A stretch of DNA of 64,000 nt from Apium graveolens. Its lineage: Eukaryota; Streptophyta; Magnoliopsida; Apiales; Apiaceae. Position 1 is the first letter of the stretch. Each line of letters begins with the position of its first letter. The stretch is taken from positions 64,978,219 to 65,042,218 of the forward strand of contig NC_133657.1 in NCBI RefSeq assembly GCF_009905375.1. The letters are read 5' to 3'. This document shows positions 12,171 to 51,632 of this stretch, in pieces. A program made the position numbers and the translations under genes. The notes below the pieces were generated by a model. That model was given only the letters and a program-made list of their open reading frames with translations, had not been told where the DNA came from and did not search any database.

Positions 12171-13584
12171 TGTTAGTCGCTAAACACGCGCTAAAATTAC
12201 ACGCAAGTATACGCGTTCGCAAGTAGTATAAGATATAAATCAGATTCGTTCCCACAGGGACTGGTTTAGGTTAACTTTATAATTTATGCATTTAAACAAC
12301 AATGTATGGTTATTATTCACTGCTAAGACGAATAATAATTTGAGGTTGTATATAACTAAGAATTAAACTAACAATTATAAATAAGGGAATAAGAATGATT
12401 GAATTAATATCTATGACAAACATGGGATTCTAACTTTATTAAATACTTCATTCAATTGCCTTTTTGTTCTTAACATTAGCATCTAATGGTAATGACACTA
12501 ATCAGATAATACGAAACTGATAAATGCCAACTTTCGTTGCACGAATACCATACTACCAGACATCCACAAAAGAGATAGAAGCTGAATAGACACCAATTAT
12601 ATTGAGACCTGATATGTCTATATAATTTGAAAATATAACGGTTTAAGCATAAATTATTTATCTTGATTATATAGGGCAAGTAAGATGGTTAAAATTACCC
12701 ATGAATCATGCATAACAAATACATGAACCTATGCTAGCATGGCAAGTTCTAAATCCTTAAATTCACTTTCGCTTCATTAAGAATAAGCACAACCAATACT
12801 AGGTTATCATACAATCACCACACACTAACGTATCGAATCAAATTAACTAAAGAAATCCATAATTAAATCCACTAGAACCCCACGATAATGCTTAGCCCAT
12901 AATCGGACTCATCATCAACTTGGATTCCGATGAAAGCATGGTATAATAAACGTAGTCTTTATAACGAATAATAAAATAAAATTAACACAAGAGTATAGTT
13001 TTAATAAAACAAGAAACGAGCATCCAAGATTATAACTCAAAACAAAGATTCACATGAATAAACTAGATCGTCTTCGTCTTTGTTCAAATTATGTTGTAGG
13101 TCTCTTGTCGTCTTCTCCTTAGCTCTGATATGTCTCTGCCTTGATATCTTATAAAAAACGATCTTTAAATTGTTTATATAGTAGCCTCATGCATCGTATA
13201 AGTCTTTCTCTCAAAAGCCAAGTAGAAACAGGATTCTGCTATCCCGACACGGCGCGGGCGCGCGCTTGATCAGCGCGGGCGCTCTGGGTTTCTGATGTTT
13301 GAGCGCGGCCGCGCGCTTGATCAGCGCGGGCGTGCTGGCTCACTGTTTAAAACTTTGACTTCTTTTTTTCCTTGCCGATTGAGCTGGTTTTCAAGAGCTT
13401 TTATTCCAACACCTTCCTGATACCAAATTGGCATCAAAACAATGCTAATTCACTTGATTACCTGGAGAATGGTTGAAAATACAAAAACACTAGAAAACAC
13501 ATTAAAATACCAATAACTTGAGTACAAATACACCAATTCAAAGCTTTACGGGGCGTAATAAAGTGTCATAAATTCCAATCAACA
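12171..13584 (-). mobile_element. 3' LTR of Athila element
   Basis: Plus-strand ends are TGTTAGTCGC and CAATCAACA. The sequence is nearly collinear with 30509-31966. It contains the GC-rich motif array at 13245-13345 and, 65-70 bases downstream on the minus strand, a TATATAAACA box near 13171-13180 where the partner LTR has TATAAATA. Confidence 0.92.
13245..13345 (-). repeat. GC-rich motif array in Athila U3 (left LTR)
   Basis: Two units of about 45 bases, each built on GCGCGCTTGATCAGCGCGGG, sit in otherwise AT-rich sequence just upstream of the TATA box on the minus strand. The same unit recurs at 31625-31725 and, multiplied, in front of ORF3 at 16345-16512. Confidence 0.8.
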
Positions 13585-16143: not shown

Positions 16144-16512
16144 TATTTATAGCTGGAGAGATGAGAATTAGATATGGAATAAAAGTGGGAATTGATCATG
16201 GGAATCGTGGGAATAATGGGTTTGATTTGGAGAGGGAAATTTGGGATGTGGAAGAGTAAAATTCGGTTTGGAATTGATTTTGTAGCAAAAATCCCGTTTT
16301 TACTCTTTAAACTGTTGTTTTTATTTTTTTTCTAAGTCATGACCCCGGCACGGGCGCGCGCTTGGACAACACGGGCGCGCTCACCTTCTGTAAAATCGGC
16401 GCAGGCGCGCGCTAGATCAGCGCGGGCGCGCGCTAGATCAGCGCGTGCGCGCTTACCTTCTGAAAAACAGCGCGGTCGCGTGCTAGATCAGCGCGGGAGT
16501 GCTTGGCTACTG
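16144..16512 (-). promoter_or_regulatory. Candidate internal promoter of Athila ORF3: GC motif array plus TATA box
   Basis: At 16345-16512 several units of GCGCGCGCTAGATCAGCGCG-type sequence repeat, separated by ACCTTCTGAAAA-like linkers. It is the same unit as in the LTR U3. Downstream on the minus strand TATAAATA occupies 16151-16144, and the ORF3 ATG follows about 97 bases later after a CT-rich leader. The order array, TATA box, start matches the LTR order of array then TATA box. The promoter function is inferred. The unit sharing and the TATA box are seen directly. Confidence 0.6.
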
Positions 16513-22393: not shown

Positions 22394-23384
22394 TCAATTG
22401 CCCATACGTAGAATCACCTCATCTTCTTCAAGAGTCCTACTTCCCTTTAGTCCTTGCAACGAATTGCAAATATGAGAACCACAGGCGGTATCTAATACCC
22501 AAGTAGAAATTTGACTTAGTGACATATTAACTTCGATCATGAACATACCTGAATCAGAAGCGGTAGTCTCACTACCTTTCTTCTTCTTTAATTCTACAAG
22601 GTAAACCTTGCAGTTCCTCTTCCAGTGCCCCACCTTGTTATAGTGAAAGCAAACAGCTTTGCTCTTGGGGTCTTCAGCTTTTGGTGGAACCGGCTTTTTC
22701 TCACCTACTTTCTTCTTCTTGGAAGGGTTCTTCTTCCTTTTCTTAGGATTGGAACCTTCACCAATTAGAAGAACATAACTCTTCGTAGGGGGAAATTTCG
22801 ATTCCGCAGTCTTCAACTTGTTATGAAGTTCAGGAAGGATGACATCCAGCTTATTCTTATGAATGTTCACAACAAACTGCGAGAACGAACTCGGAAGTGA
22901 TTGCAAGACCAATTCTTGGCTCAGCTCCCCATCCATGGAAAAACCAAGTTGTCCAAGACGTTCAATCAAATTGATCATCTTAAGTACATGGTCATTCACA
23001 GATGATCCCTCAGACATCCTACATCCGAACAGCTCCTTCGATATCTCATATCGAGCTGTCCTCCCTGCCACATCATACAAACTCTTGTAGATGCATAAGG
23101 ATAGTGTGAGCATCCAGATGCTCATGTTGCTTCTGTAGCTCAATATTCATGGCAGCTAGCATGATGCATTGAGCAACATTTGCATCATCTATCCACTTAC
23201 GATACATAACATGTTCATCATTATGTGCATCGCTAGCAGGTTCAGTAGGCTTAGGTGAGTCAAGCACATTTTCCAACTTCTCAACCCTGAGAACAATTCT
23301 CAAGTTTCGAAGCCAGTCAGCAAAATTAGGACCAGTCAACTTGTGAGCATCTAGTATACTCTGGAGTGATAGTGCAGAAGACAT
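22394..23384 (-). pseudogene. Copia gag and protease (element F)
   Basis: The ATG at 23384-23382 starts MSSALSLQSILDAHKLTGPNF, the gag N-terminus shared with element E. An extra T in a T run near 23085 shifts the frame after HLQE. The next frame continues LYDVAGRTARYEISKELFG, FGCRMSEGSSVNDHVLKM and LPSSFSQFVVN. A Lys-rich stretch and one zinc knuckle CFHYNKVGHWKRNC follow, in which the second Cys is Tyr. The protease motif is WVLDTACGSHIC, with Ala replacing the Gly of DTG. Both changes are also in element E, so they are old family traits rather than private damage. Start chosen because E has the same ATG and sequence. Confidence 0.88.
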
Positions 23385-23572
23385 AACGTATATAGTAAAT
23401 CTGCAAATGATGAACACATAACAACACTTAGCAAATATTCAATTTCATTTCAAAACACTACATGAATCGGATCTTTATTCATAAGTGGCTCCCACTAGTT
23501 TATCTAATTTATACAACCCGTAAGTGAAAATTAAGCATTCATAATGCTAGTGGGAATAGGGATCCTACATTC

Positions 23573-23906
23573 CATCACACAACCTCGGCTGTAGCACGAA
23601 ACTTCATGTGATGTTCAATAGGCAGACAACTCTTGTCAATTACATCTTATGTTATTCCCTAATAAAACTTTAGCCTCTTGATTAATTGAGTCATGGCTGT
23701 AGCACGACAGACTCAATATTTTTTGTCAAGTCTAACCCAACATTTCGTACAATTGAATCAGTCTCCAACGGCCCACGGCTGTAGCACGTAACGACCTTTA
23801 GATTCTAATTTAATGTACACGTCTCTATGTAATAGACAAGTATTTCTTATTTTGAAATCAAAGCCCTCGGATGTAGCACGAAACGACAATGATTTAAAAA
23901 TAAGAA
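23573..23906 (-). ncRNA. Four-hairpin leader RNA structure, element F copy
   Basis: Four copies of CGTGCTACAGCCG (minus strand; at 23586-23598, 23695-23706, 23776-23788 and 23868-23880) are each enclosed by a different inverted repeat. These are CATCACA with TGTGATG (23573-23579, 23607-23613), ATTGAGTC with GACTCAAT (23685-23692, 23710-23717), an imperfect AACGG with CCTTT plus an outer GTACAATTGAAT arm (23748-23759 with 23808-23818), and AAATCA with TGATTT extended by TTCTTATTTT (23844-23860 with 23890-23906). The same four stem-loops occur in the same order in element E. The stems are read directly; that the RNA folds this way is inferred. Confidence 0.7.
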
Positions 23907-24589
23907 CCACTTTCTACCATGTTGGAAGGCTTTGACCGACACAAGCCCGTTGTGTCATTGGCCAATTTCTACTTGATATTATTTAATTTTAGAGGGATTA
24001 TATTATGTTTCAATCATAATCATATTATAAAGAGATTCTTCCTTTTAAATTAAATATTTCAAATCAATAATCGATAATCAGATGATTCTCAGATCGGGGG
24101 GAGCATTGTCAAGAGGCGTCACTTAATACCCCTTTCTTACAGATAGAAATCTGCTTTTGACAGAATCATCCTTTCTCTCAATATTGAAAATTCATATTTA
24201 ATTACGTGTTTTATAAACACAAGAATCTCATGATTGTATTCATAATATTTATATTAAGGTCATGAAACAATTTCACTATACTAGATTGCCTAACATACGC
24301 CTTATGTTAATTAAGTTCACCTAAATCTATCATCGCATGATAAGTTAAGCATATATCATATATATAAGCATGAATAAACATAAAGGTAGGCATGTTAAAT
24401 CATGTAGCATATTACTCTAAGCATTATACATCCCTATGTATCACATGAAGCATTTAAAGGTAATTAAAACAATTAAAACAGCTATAAAACACTATTGTTA
24501 GCTATAAACAGTCCGAAATAATTTCAAAAAATATAATATAATATACCATTAGATGCGTCTCGAAAAGACAAATCCAACGGCACCAAGAA

Positions 24590-24870
24590 CGCCCCAAACG
24601 GACCTACCACGCGCCCTCACACGCCCCAAGAAGAAACTGACGCGCCTATACACGCACACGCGCTGTCAGGCGCATGACTGACATTCGGCCACTCGTCCCC
24701 ACGCGCACACGCGCCTCACACGCCCTGACAGCTGAGCTGACGTCAGCATGATGTCATCTGATGACGTCAGCATGACATCAGCATCAACGCTGACCAGTTA
24801 ACCGCGCGTGTCAGACACGCGCCGCGCGTGACACAGGAGCGCGTGACTCTCACGCGCGCTAGCCAGCCGC
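24590..24870 (-). repeat. CACGCGC-rich array in leader of element F
   Basis: About 280 bases of GC-rich sequence in an AT-rich leader, with many copies of ACGCGC, CACACGCGC and GCGCGTG plus three TGACGTCAGC-type repeats (24737-24790). The corresponding position in element E holds a different array (GGAATGCGTTACA units), so this leader segment differs between copies while its flanks are conserved. Confidence 0.7.
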
Positions 24871-25279
24871 GCGGTCCTTCGCCTGTTTCTGTCCTTTTTT
24901 ATTATTATTAACTGCCGCCGCCTTCATTGAACGACGTGCCAACCCATCAACATCAGCACATTCTTTATTGAATTCAGCAGGAAACAATAAATATATATAC
25001 ATAACAGATTACATATATATACATATTAAATTACGAATTTTAATTAAAACAGCTTTAAAAATTCATAATAATTAATCCACACATCAGATAATTATGAAAA
25101 AAATACCCAGACGATCTACAATACTTGTAGAATCCATATTCACAGTCAAAACAATTTTGAGAAACAATTTCTAATCAATCATAATTAATCCATGATATAA
25201 CTTGCAAAAATCATAATAAATTCATAAAAGATCATAAAATTCTGAAATTTTTATCACAGATCTATATGCATACAACCTA

Positions 25280-25292
25280 AGATCTGATACCA
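25280..25292 (-). other. Primer binding site of element F (tRNA-iMet type)
   Basis: On the minus strand TGGTATCAGATC follows the LTR end CCTACA after a single base. It matches the initiator-Met tRNA primer site TGGTATCAGAGC at ten of twelve positions or better. Confidence 0.88.
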
Positions 25293-29163: not shown

Positions 29164-30368
29164 TCAGATTTTTATTAGCTTGTTGCAGCTGGAGTTGCTG
29201 CATTGGTGCATATTACGGTTGCTGAAAACCAGGGGATTGTACTGCTTAGCTGGATACTGCTGATAAGGCTGTTGAACCACATTCTGAGCGTTGCTCCAAC
29301 TGAAATTAGGATGATTGCGGTTGTTAGGATAATAAGTGACTGGCACAGGTTGCTGTGAACACTGAAAGTTGCTCAGGAACTGAGCTGATTCACTAGAAAT
29401 TGTGCATTGATCAGTCTCATGGGCACCAGCACAAAGCTCACAGACACTAGCAATTTGATTAACTCCATAATTAGCCAGAGTGTCCACCTTCATCATCAAA
29501 GCCTTAAGTTGGGCAGCTATAGCAGTTGCTGCATCCCGCTCCAGAATTCCAGCTACTTTTCCCTGAGTCAGTCTCTGAGTAGGATTCTGGTATTCATTAG
29601 CAGGCATCAGTTCAATCAATTCATAAGCTTCATCGTAGCTCTTAGCCCACAAGGCTCCTCCTGATGCTGCATCGATCATGGGTCTAGAAGTAGCACCCAA
29701 TCCATTGTAAAAACAGTTTATAATCATCCAATCAGGCATGTCATGGTGTGGGCACTTCCTTAGCATCTCCCTATATCGATCCCAAGCCTCACACAGAGAT
29801 TCTCCAGTTTGTTGAGCAAACTGAGTAAGAGCATTCCTGATTGCAACAGTCTTCGCCATAGGGAAGAATTTAGTGAGAAACTTTTTAGCAAGATATTCCC
29901 AAGTGGTGATAGACCCTGCTGGTAGAGAATTTAACCAACACTTAGCTTTATCCCCAGAGAGAATGGGAAGAGTCACAACTTGATAGCATCTTCAGTCAGA
30001 TCATTGAACTTGAAAGTATCGCAGATCTCGATGAAATCCCTGATGTGCATGTTGGGGTCTTCAATAGGAGAACCCCCAAACTGAACTGAGTTCTCTATCA
30101 TCTGAATCGTGCTTGACGTGATCTCAAAAGTGTTAGCCCTGATGGCTGGCCTGATGATGCTTGACTGAATGTCATTGATCTTAGGCTGAGAATAGTCCAT
30201 CAAAGCCTTAGGATTTTCTACTTGATCTCCCATCACTACTAAAACTGGTTCCTCGACTTTCTCTTCTTCTACCTTCTTTTCTTCTTCAAAAACTTCCCTT
30301 CGAACCACCACAACTTCTTCCTCGGCTTTATCCAGAGTTCTTTTACGAGACCACAAACGCGTATGCAT
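29164..30368 (-). pseudogene. Athila gag
   Basis: The ATG at 30368 begins MHTRLWSRKRTLDK followed by a Glu/Val-rich segment, MGDQVENPKALMDYSQP and the FGGSPIEDPNMHIRDFIEICDTFK region typical of Athila gag. A one-base shift near 29975 moves to the frame with LPILSGDKAKCWLNSLP, TTWEYLAKKFLTKFFP (retrotransposon gag core) and PDWMIINCFYNGL. A zinc-knuckle-like CELCAGAHETDQC lies near 29440. The C-terminus is Gln/Asn/Tyr-rich and breaks near 29164, after which some 200 bases of gag tail are out of frame. Confidence 0.88.
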
Positions 30369-30508: not shown

Positions 30509-31966
30509 TGTTAGTCGCTAAACACGCGCTAAAATTACACGCAAGTATACGCGTTCGCAAGTAGTATAAGATATAAATCAGATTCGTTCCCACATGGACT
30601 GGTTTAGGTTAACTTTATAATTTATGCACTTAAGCAACAATGTATGGTTACTATCCAATGCTAAGACGAATAGCAATTTGAGGTTGTCTATAACTAAGAA
30701 TTAAACTAACAATTATAACGAAGGGAATAAGAATGATTGAATTAATATCTATGACAAACATGGGATTCTAACTTCATTAAATACTTCATTCAATAGCCTT
30801 TTCGTTCTTAACCTTAGCATGTAATGGTGATGACACTAATCAGATAACACGAAACTGATAAACGCCAACTTTCGTTGCACGAATACCAAACTACCAGACA
30901 TCCACAAAAGAGATAGAAGCTGAATAGACACCAATTATATTAATATCCTATATGTCTATAGAATTTGACAACATAACGGTTTAAGCACAAGTTATCTATC
31001 TTGATTACATAGGGTAAGTAAGATGGTTAAAATTACCCATGAATCACGCATAACAAATACATGAACCTATTCTAGCATGGCAAGTTCTAAATCCTTAAAT
31101 TCACTTTCGCTTCATTAAGAATTAACACACTATCTCATAAGTTCACGACGCTCATAAGACGAATAAGCACAACCAATACTAGGTTATCATACAATCACCA
31201 CACACTAAGGTATCGAATCAAATCAACTAAATAAATCCATAATTAAATCCTCTAGAACCCCATGATAACGATTAGCCCATAATCGGACTCATCATCAATG
31301 TGGGTTCCGATGAAAGCATGGTACAATAAATGTAGTCTTTATAATGAATAATAAAACAAAGTTAACACAAGAGTATAGGTTCACCAAAACAATAAACGAG
31401 CATCCAAGATTACAACTCATAACAAAGATTCATAAGAATAAACTAGATCATCTTCGCCTTTGTTGAATTGTGTTGTAGATCTCTTGCCGTCTTCTCCTTA
31501 GCTCTGATATGTCTCTACCTTGATATCTTATAAAAAAACTAGCTTTAAATTATTTATATAGCAGCCCCATGCAAAGTAGAAGTCTTTCTCTCAAAAACCA
31601 AGTAGAAACAGGATTTTGCTATCCCGACACGGTGTGACCGCGCGCTTGATCAGCGCAGGCGCACTGGGTTTCTAATGTTTGAGCGCGGCCGCGTGCTTGA
31701 TCAGCGCGGGTGCGCTGGCTCACTGTTCAAAACTTTGACTTGTTCTTATTCCTTGCCGATTGAGCTGTTTTTCCAATAGCTTTTATTCCAACACCTTCCT
31801 GACACCAAATTAGCACCAAAACAATGCTAATTCACTTGATTACCTGGAGAATGCCTGAAAATGCAAACACACTAGAAAATACATTAAAACACCAATACCT
31901 TGAGTATAAATACACCAATTTAAAGCTTTACGGAGCATAATAAAGTGTCATAAATACCACTTAACA
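30509..31966 (-). mobile_element. 5' LTR of Athila element
   Basis: 1458 bp, starts TGTTAGTCGC and ends CACTTAACA on the plus strand. On the minus strand the GC-rich motif array at 31625-31725 is followed 67 bases later by TATAAATA (31558-31551), the likely LTR promoter. About 42 bases near 31127-31170 are absent from the left LTR. Confidence 0.92.
31551..31725 (-). promoter_or_regulatory. Athila LTR promoter: TATA box with upstream GC-rich motif array
   Basis: TATAAATA (minus strand, 31558-31551) is preceded by two units around CGCGCTTGATCAGCGC (31625-31725). The same unit and order occur before ORF3 at 16144-16512. Confidence 0.65.
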
Positions 31967-48958: not shown

Positions 48959-48970
48959 TGGTATCACAGT
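48959..48970 (+). other. Primer binding site of element E (tRNA-iMet type)
   Basis: TGGTATCACAG follows the LTR end CCAACA by one base; element F has TGGTATCAGATC at the same place. Confidence 0.8.
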
Positions 48971-49406
48971 ATAGGTTGTATGCATATAGATCTGTGGTAA
49001 AAATTTCAGAATTTTATGTGCTTGTATGAATTAATTATGATTTTTACAAGTTTTATTATGGATTAATTTTGTCTGATGAGAAATCAATTCTCAGAATAAT
49101 TTTGAATGTTAATCTGGGTTCTACAGTGTTGTAGATCGTCTGGGTATTTTTTTTTTATAATTTTATGATGTATAGATTTCTTATTATGAATTTTTGAAGT
49201 TGTTGCAATTAAATTCGTAATTAAATAATCATATATATATATAAATTGTAAGTATATATATATTGCATCTGCTGCTTGTCTGCTGTTGTCTGTTGAAAGC
49301 AAAGCAAAGGTACAGAGTTGACAGGGACGGCGGCACGGAAATTCGTGCGAGAAAAGACGGCGGCTGTTCTGACAGGCGGAGAAACGCAGAAGAAAGGGTG
49401 TCGCGC

Positions 49407-49545
49407 ATTCCGAGAATGCGTTACACCCTGTGGCGCATTCACGGAATGCATTACACCTTTTAATGGCTTAAAAGGGTTGTAACGCATCACCGGAATGCGT
49501 TACAGGGCTTGTAACGCGTTCCTGTAATGCGTTACAGCCCGACTG
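49407..49545 (+). repeat. GGAATGCGTTACA array in leader of element E
   Basis: Five to six units of the kind CATTCCGAGAATGCGTTACA, GGAATGCATTACA, GGAATGCGTTACA and TGTAATGCGTTACA, partly as inverted copies (TGTAACGCATCACCGGAATGCG). In element F the same leader position holds a CACGCGC array instead. Confidence 0.75.
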
Positions 49546-50043
49546 TCCATATTAATTTGATTTTTTGGGAGTTTCGTAACTCCGTTTTGGGCGTGCAATA
49601 TATCGTTGGATTCGTTTTTCCGAGACGGATCTAATGGAGTGATCAAATTTTATTTTATATAAAAGGTTTGAACTGTTTATATTTCCGAAAGTGTTTTAAA
49701 GCTATTTTTGACTGTTTTAACTGCTTTTAAATGCTTCATGTGATACATAGAGATGTATAATGCTTAGACCAATATGCTAGATGATGTAACATGCCTACCT
49801 TGACGTTTATTCATGTTTATATATGTGATATATACTTAGTTTATCATGCGATGATAGATTTAGGTGAACTTAAATGAACATAAGGCGTTTGTTAGACAAC
49901 CTAGTATAGTGAAATTGTTTCATAACCTAAATAATAATATTATGAATACAATCATGAGATTCCTGTGTTTATGAAACACGTAATTGAATATGAATTTTCA
50001 ATATGAGAGAAAGGATGATTCTGTCAACAACAGATTTCTATCT

Positions 50044-50783
50044 GTAAGAAAGGGTTATTCAGTGACGCCTCTTGACAATGCTCCACCCGATCTGGGAATC
50101 ATCTGATTATTGATTATTGATTTGAAATATTTAATTTAAAAGGAAGAATCTCTTTATAATATGATTATGATTGTAACATAATATAATCCCTCTAAAATTA
50201 AATAATATCAAGTAGTAATTGGCCAATGATACAACGGGCTTGTGTCGGTCATAGCCTTCCAACATGATAGAAAGTAGTTCTTATTTTTAAATCATTGTCG
50301 GTTCGTGCTACAGCCGAGGGCTTTGATTTCGAAATAAGAAATACTTGTCTATTACATAGAGATGTGTACATTGAATTAGAATCTAAAGGTCGGTACGTGC
50401 CACAGCCGTGGGCCTTTGGGGACTGATTCAATTGTACGGAATGTTGGGTTAAACTTGACTTAGAATATTGAGTTTGTCGTGCCACAGCCGTGACTCAATT
50501 ATTCAAGAGGCTAAAGTTTGATTAGGGAATAACATAAGATGTAATTGACAAGAGTTGTTTGCCTATTGAACATTACATGGCGGTTCGTGCTACAGCCGGG
50601 GTTGTGTAATGGAATGTAGGATCCCTATTCCCACTAGCATTATGAATGCTTAATTTTTCACGTAGGGGGTTGAATAAATTAGATAAACTAGTGGGAGCCA
50701 CTTATGAATAAAGACCCGATTCATAGTGTTTTTAAATGAAATTGAATATTTGCTAAGTGTTGTTATGTGTTTATCATTTACAG
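50044..50783 (+). other. Candidate leader intron of element E
   Basis: The donor is GTAAG at 50044-50048 in the context TATCTGTAAGAAAGGG. The acceptor is TATCATTTACAG ending at 50783. Length is 740 nt, the same as in element F (24140 to 23401), and both sites are conserved. The gag ATG lies 17 bases beyond the acceptor (50800). Splicing is inferred from these signals only. Confidence 0.45.
50278..50611 (+). ncRNA. Four-hairpin leader RNA structure, element E copy
   Basis: The loop motif CGTGCYACAGCCG occurs at 50304-50316, 50396-50408, 50478-50490 and 50586-50598. H1: TTCTTATTT/AAATAAGAA (50278-50286, 50332-50340) and AAATCA/TGATTT (50289-50294, 50324-50329). H2: AAAGG/CCTTT (50385-50389, 50413-50417) within GTACATTGAAT/ATTCAATTGTAC (50366-50376, 50426-50437). 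H3: ATTGAGT/ACTCAAT (50467-50473, 50493-50499). H4: CATTACA/TGTAATG (50571-50577, 50605-50611). H4 is CATCACA/TGTGATG in F, so a T-A pair has become C-G. The loops are alike and the stems unlike, which argues for structure over simple duplication. Role unknown; packaging or translation control are possibilities. Confidence 0.72.
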
Positions 50784-50799
50784 ATTTACAATATACATT

Positions 50800-51632
50800 A
50801 TGTCTTTTGCACTATCACTCAGGAGCATACTGGATGCTCACAAGTTGACTGGTCCTAATTATGCTGACTGGCTTCGAAACTTAAGAATTGTTCTCAGGAT
50901 TGAGAAGCTGGAATACGTGATTGACTCACCTAAGCCTACTGAACCTGCTAGTGATGCACATAATGATGAACATGTTGTGTATCGTAAGTGGGTAGATGAT
51001 GCAAATGTTGCTCAATGCATCATGCTAGCTTCCATGAACATTGAGCTACAGAAGCAACATGAGCATATGGATGCTCACACTATCCTCATGCATCTACAAG
51101 AGTTGTATGATGTGGCAGGGAGGACAGCTCGATATGAGATATTGAAGGAGCTGTTCGGTTGTAGGATGTCTGAGGGATCATCTGTGAATGACCATGTACT
51201 TAAGATGATCAATTTGATTGAACGTCTTGGACAACTTGGTTTTGCCATGGATGGGGAGCTGAGCCAAGAACTGTGGTCTTGCAATTGCTTCCGAGTTCGT
51301 TCTCCGCAGTTTGTTGTGAACTTTCACATGAATAAGTTGGATGTCAGCCTGCCTGAACTCCACAACATGTGAAGACTGCGGAATCGAATTTCCCCCCTAA
51401 GAAGAGTTCTGTTCTTCTAATTGGTGAAGGGTCCAATCCTAAGAAAAGGAAGAGGAAACCTTCCAAGAAGAAGAAAGTAGGTGAGAAAACGCCGGTTCCA
51501 CCAAAAGCTGAAGACCCCAAGAGCAAAGTTGTTTACTTTCACTATAACAAGGTGGGGCACTGGAAGAGGAACTGCAAGGTATACCTTGCAGAATTGAAGA
51601 AGAAGAAGGGTAGTGAGACTACCGGCTTCTGA
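50800..51632 (+). pseudogene. Copia gag (element E)
   Basis: ATG at 50800 (MSFALSLRSILDAHKLTGPNY), the same start as in F. Core segments: WLRNLRIVLRIEKLE, YRKWVDDANVAQCIML, ELYDVAGRTARYEILKELFG and EGSSVNDHVLKMINLIERLGQLGF. A frame disturbance near 51275 (after ELSQEL) and another near 51372 shift the tail. The next frame has the Lys-rich PKKRKRKPSKKKKVG and the knuckle YFHYNKVGHWKRNC, in which both first Cys positions are now Tyr. It lacks F's extra T near the LQEL site. Confidence 0.88.

Follow-up and report, generated by a model that had tools for sequence, protein, structure and literature searches.

The leader of a Ty1/copia retrotransposon of Apium graveolens contains, in its last third, four hairpins that present one common core on stems of different sequence. 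The element, E, lies on the forward strand of the window analysed here (the whole stretch of 64,000 nucleotides (nt) from contig NC_133657.1, positions 64,978,219 to 65,042,218), and a related element carrying the same array, F, lies on the reverse strand; both are long terminal repeat (LTR) elements. Comparison of leaders shows that the hairpins are present in two families, that of E and F and a second one termed D, where they behave as an RNA structure under selection that shares one core. We see an even chance that the stretch serves an abundant Ty1/copia family as a multi-site recognition array in its genomic RNA, with packaging or dimerisation as the probable purpose. What is new here is that two unpaired positions of the core change in concert across hairpins.

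A common core on four different stems

Each of E and F holds four copies of the motif CGTGCYACAGCCG, every copy within its own inverted repeat. The copies in E (+ strand) start at 50304, 50396, 50478 and 50586, with start-to-start distances of 92, 82 and 108, as expected from the sequence-only reading of this DNA, which had placed them 80-110 apart. All four were likewise said to be present in F (- strand), and they are found there at 23868, 23776, 23694 and 23586, the first and the third with one mismatch each. Allowing up to two mismatches gave 8 motif matches versus 0.25 expected, and 8/8 copies of the window read YACA at the loop positions.

Hairpin 1 of E (50270..50349, +; motif at 50304-50316) has a stem of TTCTTATTT plus AAATCA, hairpin 2 (50366..50437, +; motif at 50396-50408) one of AAAGG plus an 11-pair outer arm, hairpin 3 (50462..50507, +; motif at 50478-50490, outermost pair 50463-50504) one of ATTGAGT, and hairpin 4 (50562..50620, +; motif at 50586-50598) one of CATTACA/TGTAATG, which reads CATCACA/TGTGATG in F. 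The stems are as previously described and do differ from one another; their description as perfect inverted repeats fails for hairpin 2, whose outer arm contains a 1-nt bulge. The counterparts in F, all on the - strand, are hairpin 1 (23835..23914; motif at 23868-23880 with one mismatch), in which the outer stem folds and the core does not, hairpin 2 (23747..23818; motif at 23776-23788), hairpin 3 (23677..23722; motif at 23694-23706 with one mismatch), in which the core is not formed, and hairpin 4 (23564..23622; motif at 23586-23598).

The motif had been taken for a shared open loop. Instead, the 13-mer is predicted to fold as CG-U-GC-YACA-GC-CG, a bulged stem capped by a tetraloop. Within E, hairpins 1, 2 and 4 are predicted to form UWCG, a bulged U, GC, the YACA tetraloop, GC and the partner strand, below which two 5′ nt are left unpaired; hairpin 3 forms the inner part of this core only, so that the 2-nt lower bulge is found in three of the four hairpins. 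In F the core fold is predicted for hairpins 2 and 4 only, hairpins 1 and 3 being those with a motif mismatch. At positions -1/+1, hairpins 1, 2 and 4 have U-A, A-U or U.G, for which hairpin 3 has U.U or U-A; within one and the same leader, both letters of this pair differ between hairpins 1 and 2.

When each 5′ arm of E was folded with its own 3′ arm, the mean was -16.5 kcal/mol, versus -6.2 for swapped arms, and the own arms of hairpins 1 to 4 of F gave -17.6, -14.1, -6.2 and -17.0 kcal/mol. Out of 24 assignments of arms, the true one ranked first in each element. At 285 leader positions away from the motifs the mean was -6.7 kcal/mol, a few positions at a fifth stem near 50660 reaching -16.5. 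Compared with dinucleotide shuffles of 85-nt windows, hairpins 1 to 4 had z values of -5.6, -5.0, -2.1 and -0.9 in E and of -5.0, -2.5, -0.3 and -2.4 in F; hairpin 4 of E and hairpin 3 of F are therefore not unusual singly. The whole 456-nt domain reached z values of -5.4 (E) and -4.1 (F) and folded better than 100/100 shuffles in each element, while the upstream 621 nt of the leader gave a z of -1.9 (20 shuffles).

The four cores are alike, as they would be in a DNA-level repeat or an ordinary tandem duplication without RNA function. However, the flanks located 10-40 nt from the motif are unrelated among the copies (6-12/30 letters alike) and yet self-complementary, and the changes described below keep the pairs. 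The earlier argument that a simple tandem duplication is unlikely is thus upheld, and we regard a repeat of this kind, which the covariation contradicts, as extremely improbable.

The hairpins are predicted to be part of a larger branched domain (50253..50512, +), seen in the folds of E and of F and in a fold of 42 leaders. CCAACAT at 50259-50265 would pair with ATGTTGG at 50441-50447 to close hairpins 1-2, and AGCCTT at 50253-50258 with GAGGCT at 50507-50512 to close hairpins 1-3. The columns of these closing stems are nearly invariant in the 42 leaders and hence uninformative for covariation. Directly after hairpin 4, a fifth stem without the shared core is formed by CCCACTAG and CTAGTGGG (50630-50695), at a site of several subfamily-level indels and changes.

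Stem pairing within and between families

The 3.33-Gb assembly contains 34,759 exact copies of the motif, versus 2 of a reversed control pattern. The first 100 motif places, all on one contig (C1), were grouped into 40 clusters, which together with E and F make up the set of 42 E/F-family leaders. The leader domain was present in 40/40 clusters, 92-98% identical to E, and extrapolation from the cluster ratio suggests that the genome may hold about 14,000 copies of it. A compensatory change between E and F had been pointed out in hairpin 4; within the family this claim stands, since the pair concerned, 50574-50608, is kept in 42/42 leaders (25 T-A, 17 C-G, no intermediate). Over the 29 substitutions that separate E from F, the F structure showed 3 broken pairs versus 9.7 expected (P 0.0008) and the E structure 10 versus 15.1 (P 0.022), and a control stretch of the leader showed no deficit with the E structure (10 broken pairs versus 8.9 expected). 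This test is modest by itself, because the control stretch shows a mild deficit with the F structure. In one E structure, paired-site changes common to at least 6 copies kept pairing in 10/13 cases, versus 37/116 for changes found in 1-2 copies (Fisher P 0.004), and one of the 3 losses among the shared changes fell within the hairpins (42 leaders, first E structure). The other E structure gave 11/18 versus 38/124 (P 0.016). The difference between shared and rare changes fits selection during element activity and decay after insertion.

Family D was found with a related gag, which shares 57% identity with that of E; 150 of 30,112 candidates were scored, with 300 matches, and the 30 best of these 300 were taken as loci. 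With up to 2 mismatches allowed, each of the 30 has at least 3 motif copies, whose order is unchanged and whose spacing is nearly so (91, 83, 107; one locus, L102, departs), in a domain with a mean identity of 81% to E. Comparing E with the commonest state of D, both sides have changed and pairing is kept at 50284-50334 and 50292-50326 in hairpin 1, at 50369-50434 and 50373-50429 in hairpin 2 and at 50579-50603 in hairpin 4. The same applies to two further pairs, 50387-50415, in hairpin 2, which is paired in only 25/42 E/F-family leaders, and 50377-50425, which is unpaired in 24/42. Changes that lose a pair numbered 11-17 per D copy versus null means of 22-31 (P ≤0.002 in each of the 30 copies), the null being the same substitutions scattered over the hairpins, with gaps filled with the E letter and the structure taken from E. 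Double changes that keep a pair exceeded this null at P <0.05 in 29/30 copies, the exception being L104 (0.08); the 30 copies are related and hence do not represent 30 independent tests.

An alignment of 23 leaders (15 of the 42 E/F-family leaders and 8 of the 30 D loci) had 94.1% of its cells paired, versus 34-45% (maximum 44.9%) when the structure was slid by 1-3 columns. Similarly, 57 cells were changed on both sides versus at most 17, and the covariation score was 0.148 versus at most 0.053. RNAalifold recovered much of hairpins 1, 2 and 4 from this alignment and paired the stretch of hairpin 3 otherwise. These comparisons show covariation between families in the stems of hairpins 1, 2 and 4. 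The covariation that the sequence-only reading had looked for in four stems is accordingly present in three, and its notion of one shared core on interchangeable stems agrees with the pairing kept across the two families, with hairpin 3 as the weak member.

We also checked whether the stems decay while only the motif persists; the outcome was favourable on the whole, if mixed. Between E/F and D, identity was 76.3% in paired stems and 70.7% in other unpaired hairpin positions, versus 87.9% in the motif and 85.7% in the spacers; the stems thus changed more than the spacers, with pair breaks below chance. Within the E/F family this check came out differently, which brings us to the results that weigh against a selected array. 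There the motif (89.7%) was less conserved than stems (94.7%) and spacers (94.9%). In the control stretch, the F structure had 5 broken pairs versus 8.3 expected (P 0.07) and 7 kept pairs versus 3.4 (P 0.017). Of the pairs in the E structure, nine fail to form in the commonest D state (5′ positions 50278, 50281, 50283, 50371, 50383, 50463, 50467, 50474 and 50574), three in hairpin 1, two in hairpin 2, three in hairpin 3 and one in hairpin 4; the three in hairpin 1 lie in a stem that, judged by eye, re-forms in a shifted register. The one in hairpin 4 is the very pair proposed as compensatory, 50574-50608, which is C.A in 23/30 D copies. Two of five pair measures on the 23 leaders did not rise above shuffles (10 double-change pairs versus 9.1, and 43 further pair types versus 48.4). 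Hairpin 3, in which most pairs are unchanged between E and D, is poorly supported, the least so of the four. Finally, independent events are few: there are two main splits, and about eight pairs have changed on both sides.

Six D copies (L096, L100, L108, L110, L112 and L120) carry a hairpin 4 of E/F-family type, which suggests recombination between the families inside the array.

Concerted change at two core positions

Two unpaired core positions vary between subfamilies, namely -3 in the lower bulge (G/T) and 6 in the tetraloop (C/T); hairpin 3 never has G at -3. Among the 42 copies, the letters at (-3,6) are (T,C) throughout the array in 11 and (T,T) throughout in 8, and (G,T) with T in hairpin 3 in 7, one more of this kind having A at -3 of hairpin 1. 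The 25 E-type copies were split (12 + 13) by a marker at 50432, in the outer arm of hairpin 2 and outside the cores. The two groups differed by a frequency difference (|df|) of at least 0.5 at 10 further sites within the 456-nt domain, and the seven homologous core positions were all among these 10 (P 1.6e-13, hypergeometric, for a test chosen after looking and with linkage ignored). Markers 50432, 50491, which lies inside the core of hairpin 3, and 50536 (T versus G only, copies with A excluded) each picked out 7/7 core sites. E and F alone show 4 parallel core changes, for which the null probability is about 0.005-0.01, again tested after looking. That the same two bases switch together in hairpins spaced apart is evidence of an unusual kind, readable from the sequence, which would point to a common binding partner.

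Several observations pull in the other direction. Mixed arrays make up 15/42 E/F-family copies; they resemble steps to uniform ones, such as GT GT.C GT beside GT GT.T GT. Marker 50684 picked out only 1/7 core sites. In D, position 6 reads T,C,T,T in 24/30 copies, and uniformity is therefore a tendency, not a rule. Between core types, a |df| of at least 0.5 was found at 1/1106 sites from the leader end through gag (9 and 10 copies), and this site is non-coding; the largest |df| inside gag was 0.46 in the same copies.

Two origins of the concerted change were considered and set aside. The pair A(-1)/U(+1) of hairpin 2, which separates two switched sites, is the same in 42/42 leaders, which disfavours a conversion tract; we therefore judged gene conversion between hairpins unlikely. 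Simple co-evolution of Gag with the core type was looked for and not found, no gag site co-segregating with it. A switch of core letters without gag would leave a tolerant Gag, a host partner or an RNA-RNA contact. The core letters might then represent compatibility types: the partner of the four hairpins would be their counterparts on a second genomic RNA, or else a homo-oligomeric host factor, the array working best when all four match, and lineages would drift to uniform (G,U), (U,C) or (U,U) at -3 and 6 via mixed intermediates still in the genome, so that co-packaged RNAs would be sorted without a change in Gag. We hold this specific version to be unlikely. Even less probable, in our judgement, is an escape from, or decoy for, host silencing, in which a small RNA or a sensor targets the hairpins and these change together; it would explain why the same two letters switch in concert and leaves unexplained both the kept stem pairing and the conservation of the rest of the core between families.

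Possible roles of the array and its surroundings

The leader of E (48959..50799, +) runs from a primer-binding-site-like TGGTATCACAGT to the gag ATG at 50800 and has 1841 nt with 51 ATGs; that of F (23385..25292, -) runs from TGGTATCAGATC to the gag ATG and has 1908 nt with 60 ATGs. The array thus lies in the leader upstream of gag, where a retroviral-type packaging signal would be located. Scoring with splice matrices placed an acceptor-like site 16 nt upstream of the gag ATG in each element (50783 in E, 23401 in F), the best-scoring one in F and tied with 50665 in E. Splicing to this site would remove the stretch that holds the array, which might for that reason mark unspliced genomic RNA. 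In the reading that we favour, the array would be four copies of one recognition hairpin, the CG-U-GC-YACA-GC-CG core on stems largely free in sequence as long as they pair. During packaging or dimerisation several of them would be bound at once, either by Gag or by their counterparts on another RNA molecule, with bulge position -3 and loop position 6 as contact bases. Against this stands the comparison of splice donors, in which none was clearly common to the leaders of E and F.

The same leaders invite two other explanations. As a translation element, the hairpins would bring ribosomes to gag in spite of the 51-60 upstream ATGs, whether through internal entry or through shunting, the latter being known in plant pararetroviruses. 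The number of ATGs and the end of hairpin 4 of E about 180 nt before the gag ATG are in keeping with such a role, which we nevertheless find improbable: splicing to the acceptor-like site could remove the ATG problem, and, to our knowledge, a fourfold repeat of one recognition core is atypical of ribosome entry sites. Alternatively, a host RNA-binding protein might read the core, so that unspliced RNA is exported or splicing limited, or the element might act in nuclear retention. The array does precede an acceptor-like site in both elements, a host partner would explain the absent gag co-segregation, and export elements are known from IAP and musD (PMC12786077, accessible part). The lack of a donor clearly conserved between E and F and of a known partner makes this explanation, too, a doubtful one.

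Among known systems, the closest to the array are stem-loops SL-C and SL-D of gamma-retroviruses, which lie upstream of gag and play a role in packaging. According to the accessible part of PMC5874298, SL-C and SL-D of murine leukaemia virus (MLV) both carry a GACG tetraloop, two GACG tetraloops occur also in RD-114, and the RNA dimer gains stability from non-canonical loop-loop contacts of SL-C and SL-D. This use of hairpins with a shared tetraloop in dimer formation is why packaging or dimerisation is preferred here. As in MLV, leader hairpins of a reverse-transcribing element share one tetraloop; they differ in being four instead of two and in their YACA loop, bulged U and 2-nt bulge. GACG is absent from the eight window copies, all of which have YACA.

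Hepatitis B virus RNA also presents one loop motif, RGAG, on several stem-loops (PMC7612645, accessible part). Its signals are dispersed across the genome, whereas the four predicted here are clustered in the leader. Similar multiple packaging signals have been proposed for satellite tobacco necrosis virus (STNV). The coat-protein operator of MS2 has a tetraloop, two base pairs and then one bulged 5′ nucleotide, a likeness to the core of E and F in shape only, as letters and biology differ. In Ty1, too, the genomic RNA of a copia-type element has a structured 5′ region, which includes binding sites for Gag; it differs in having a pseudoknot, for which a packaging role could not be shown, and the accessible part of the source describes no repeated hairpin core (PMC4974528). 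The IAP RTE and musD MTE are structured cis RNA elements of LTR elements as well, again with no repeated core described in the accessible part of PMC12786077.

At gathering score, Rfam matched nothing in the leaders, its sole match in the window being a snoRNA outside them; the best sub-threshold match over the hairpins scored 23.4 bits versus a cut-off of 101.7 (E leader, 49600-50800). Gag and reverse-transcriptase queries found no relative among viral contigs. Two matches to a two-motif pattern were discarded, one in a viral contig (L001), which encodes a phage-like repeat protein, and one in actinobacteria (L002, from bacterial genomes), taken as chance. In open-licence literature, two 11-mers of the motif gave no retrotransposon title among the matches listed. 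Among the titles and abstract openings listed from that literature, which excludes most subscription work, none concerned a cis element of a plant copia leader with covariation support. The earlier statement that the array lacks a described counterpart in plant Copia elements holds to this extent, with the MLV stem-loops (PMC5874298, accessible part) as a partial retroviral one. A structured array in a family with thousands of copies is directly testable.

Membership of E and F in Ty1/copia follows from PF14223 in both, PF00665 and PF07727 in F (domain search) and LTR-type direct repeats. Integrase and reverse transcriptase domains were seen in F alongside the copia-type gag; that scan refers to F, to which the listed blocks of E align at 87-98%. 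The primer binding site TGGTATCAGA is at 25292 in F, with a weaker match in E. GC-rich short palindromic repeats occupy 49270-49600 of the E leader and about 24550-24980 (-) of the F leader; in this stretch the alignment of E and F has only 28-46% matches per 50 columns, and both flanks align well. The first part of the gag of E (50800..51372, +) contains PF14223, and its open frame stops sooner than in related gags. Among the named matches of a gag protein search are proteins of Apium graveolens, the top one with 98% identity over 77% of the query, and related gags are also carried by Theobroma, Erythroxylum and others. The Gag zinc knuckle (about 51537-51578, +, in E, read by eye, and 22610-22651, -, in F) is HYNKVGHWKRNC, unlike that of the related gags P0002 and P0009, HCNKVGHWKRNC. 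Elsewhere in the window, plant snoRNA R71 (RF00097, 54.1 bits) was matched at 29738-29844, on the strand opposite to an open frame that is gypsy-gag-like by eye, and GC-rich repeats with GCGCGGGCGCGCGC-like units lie at 13250-13335, 16346-16452 and 31630-31715.
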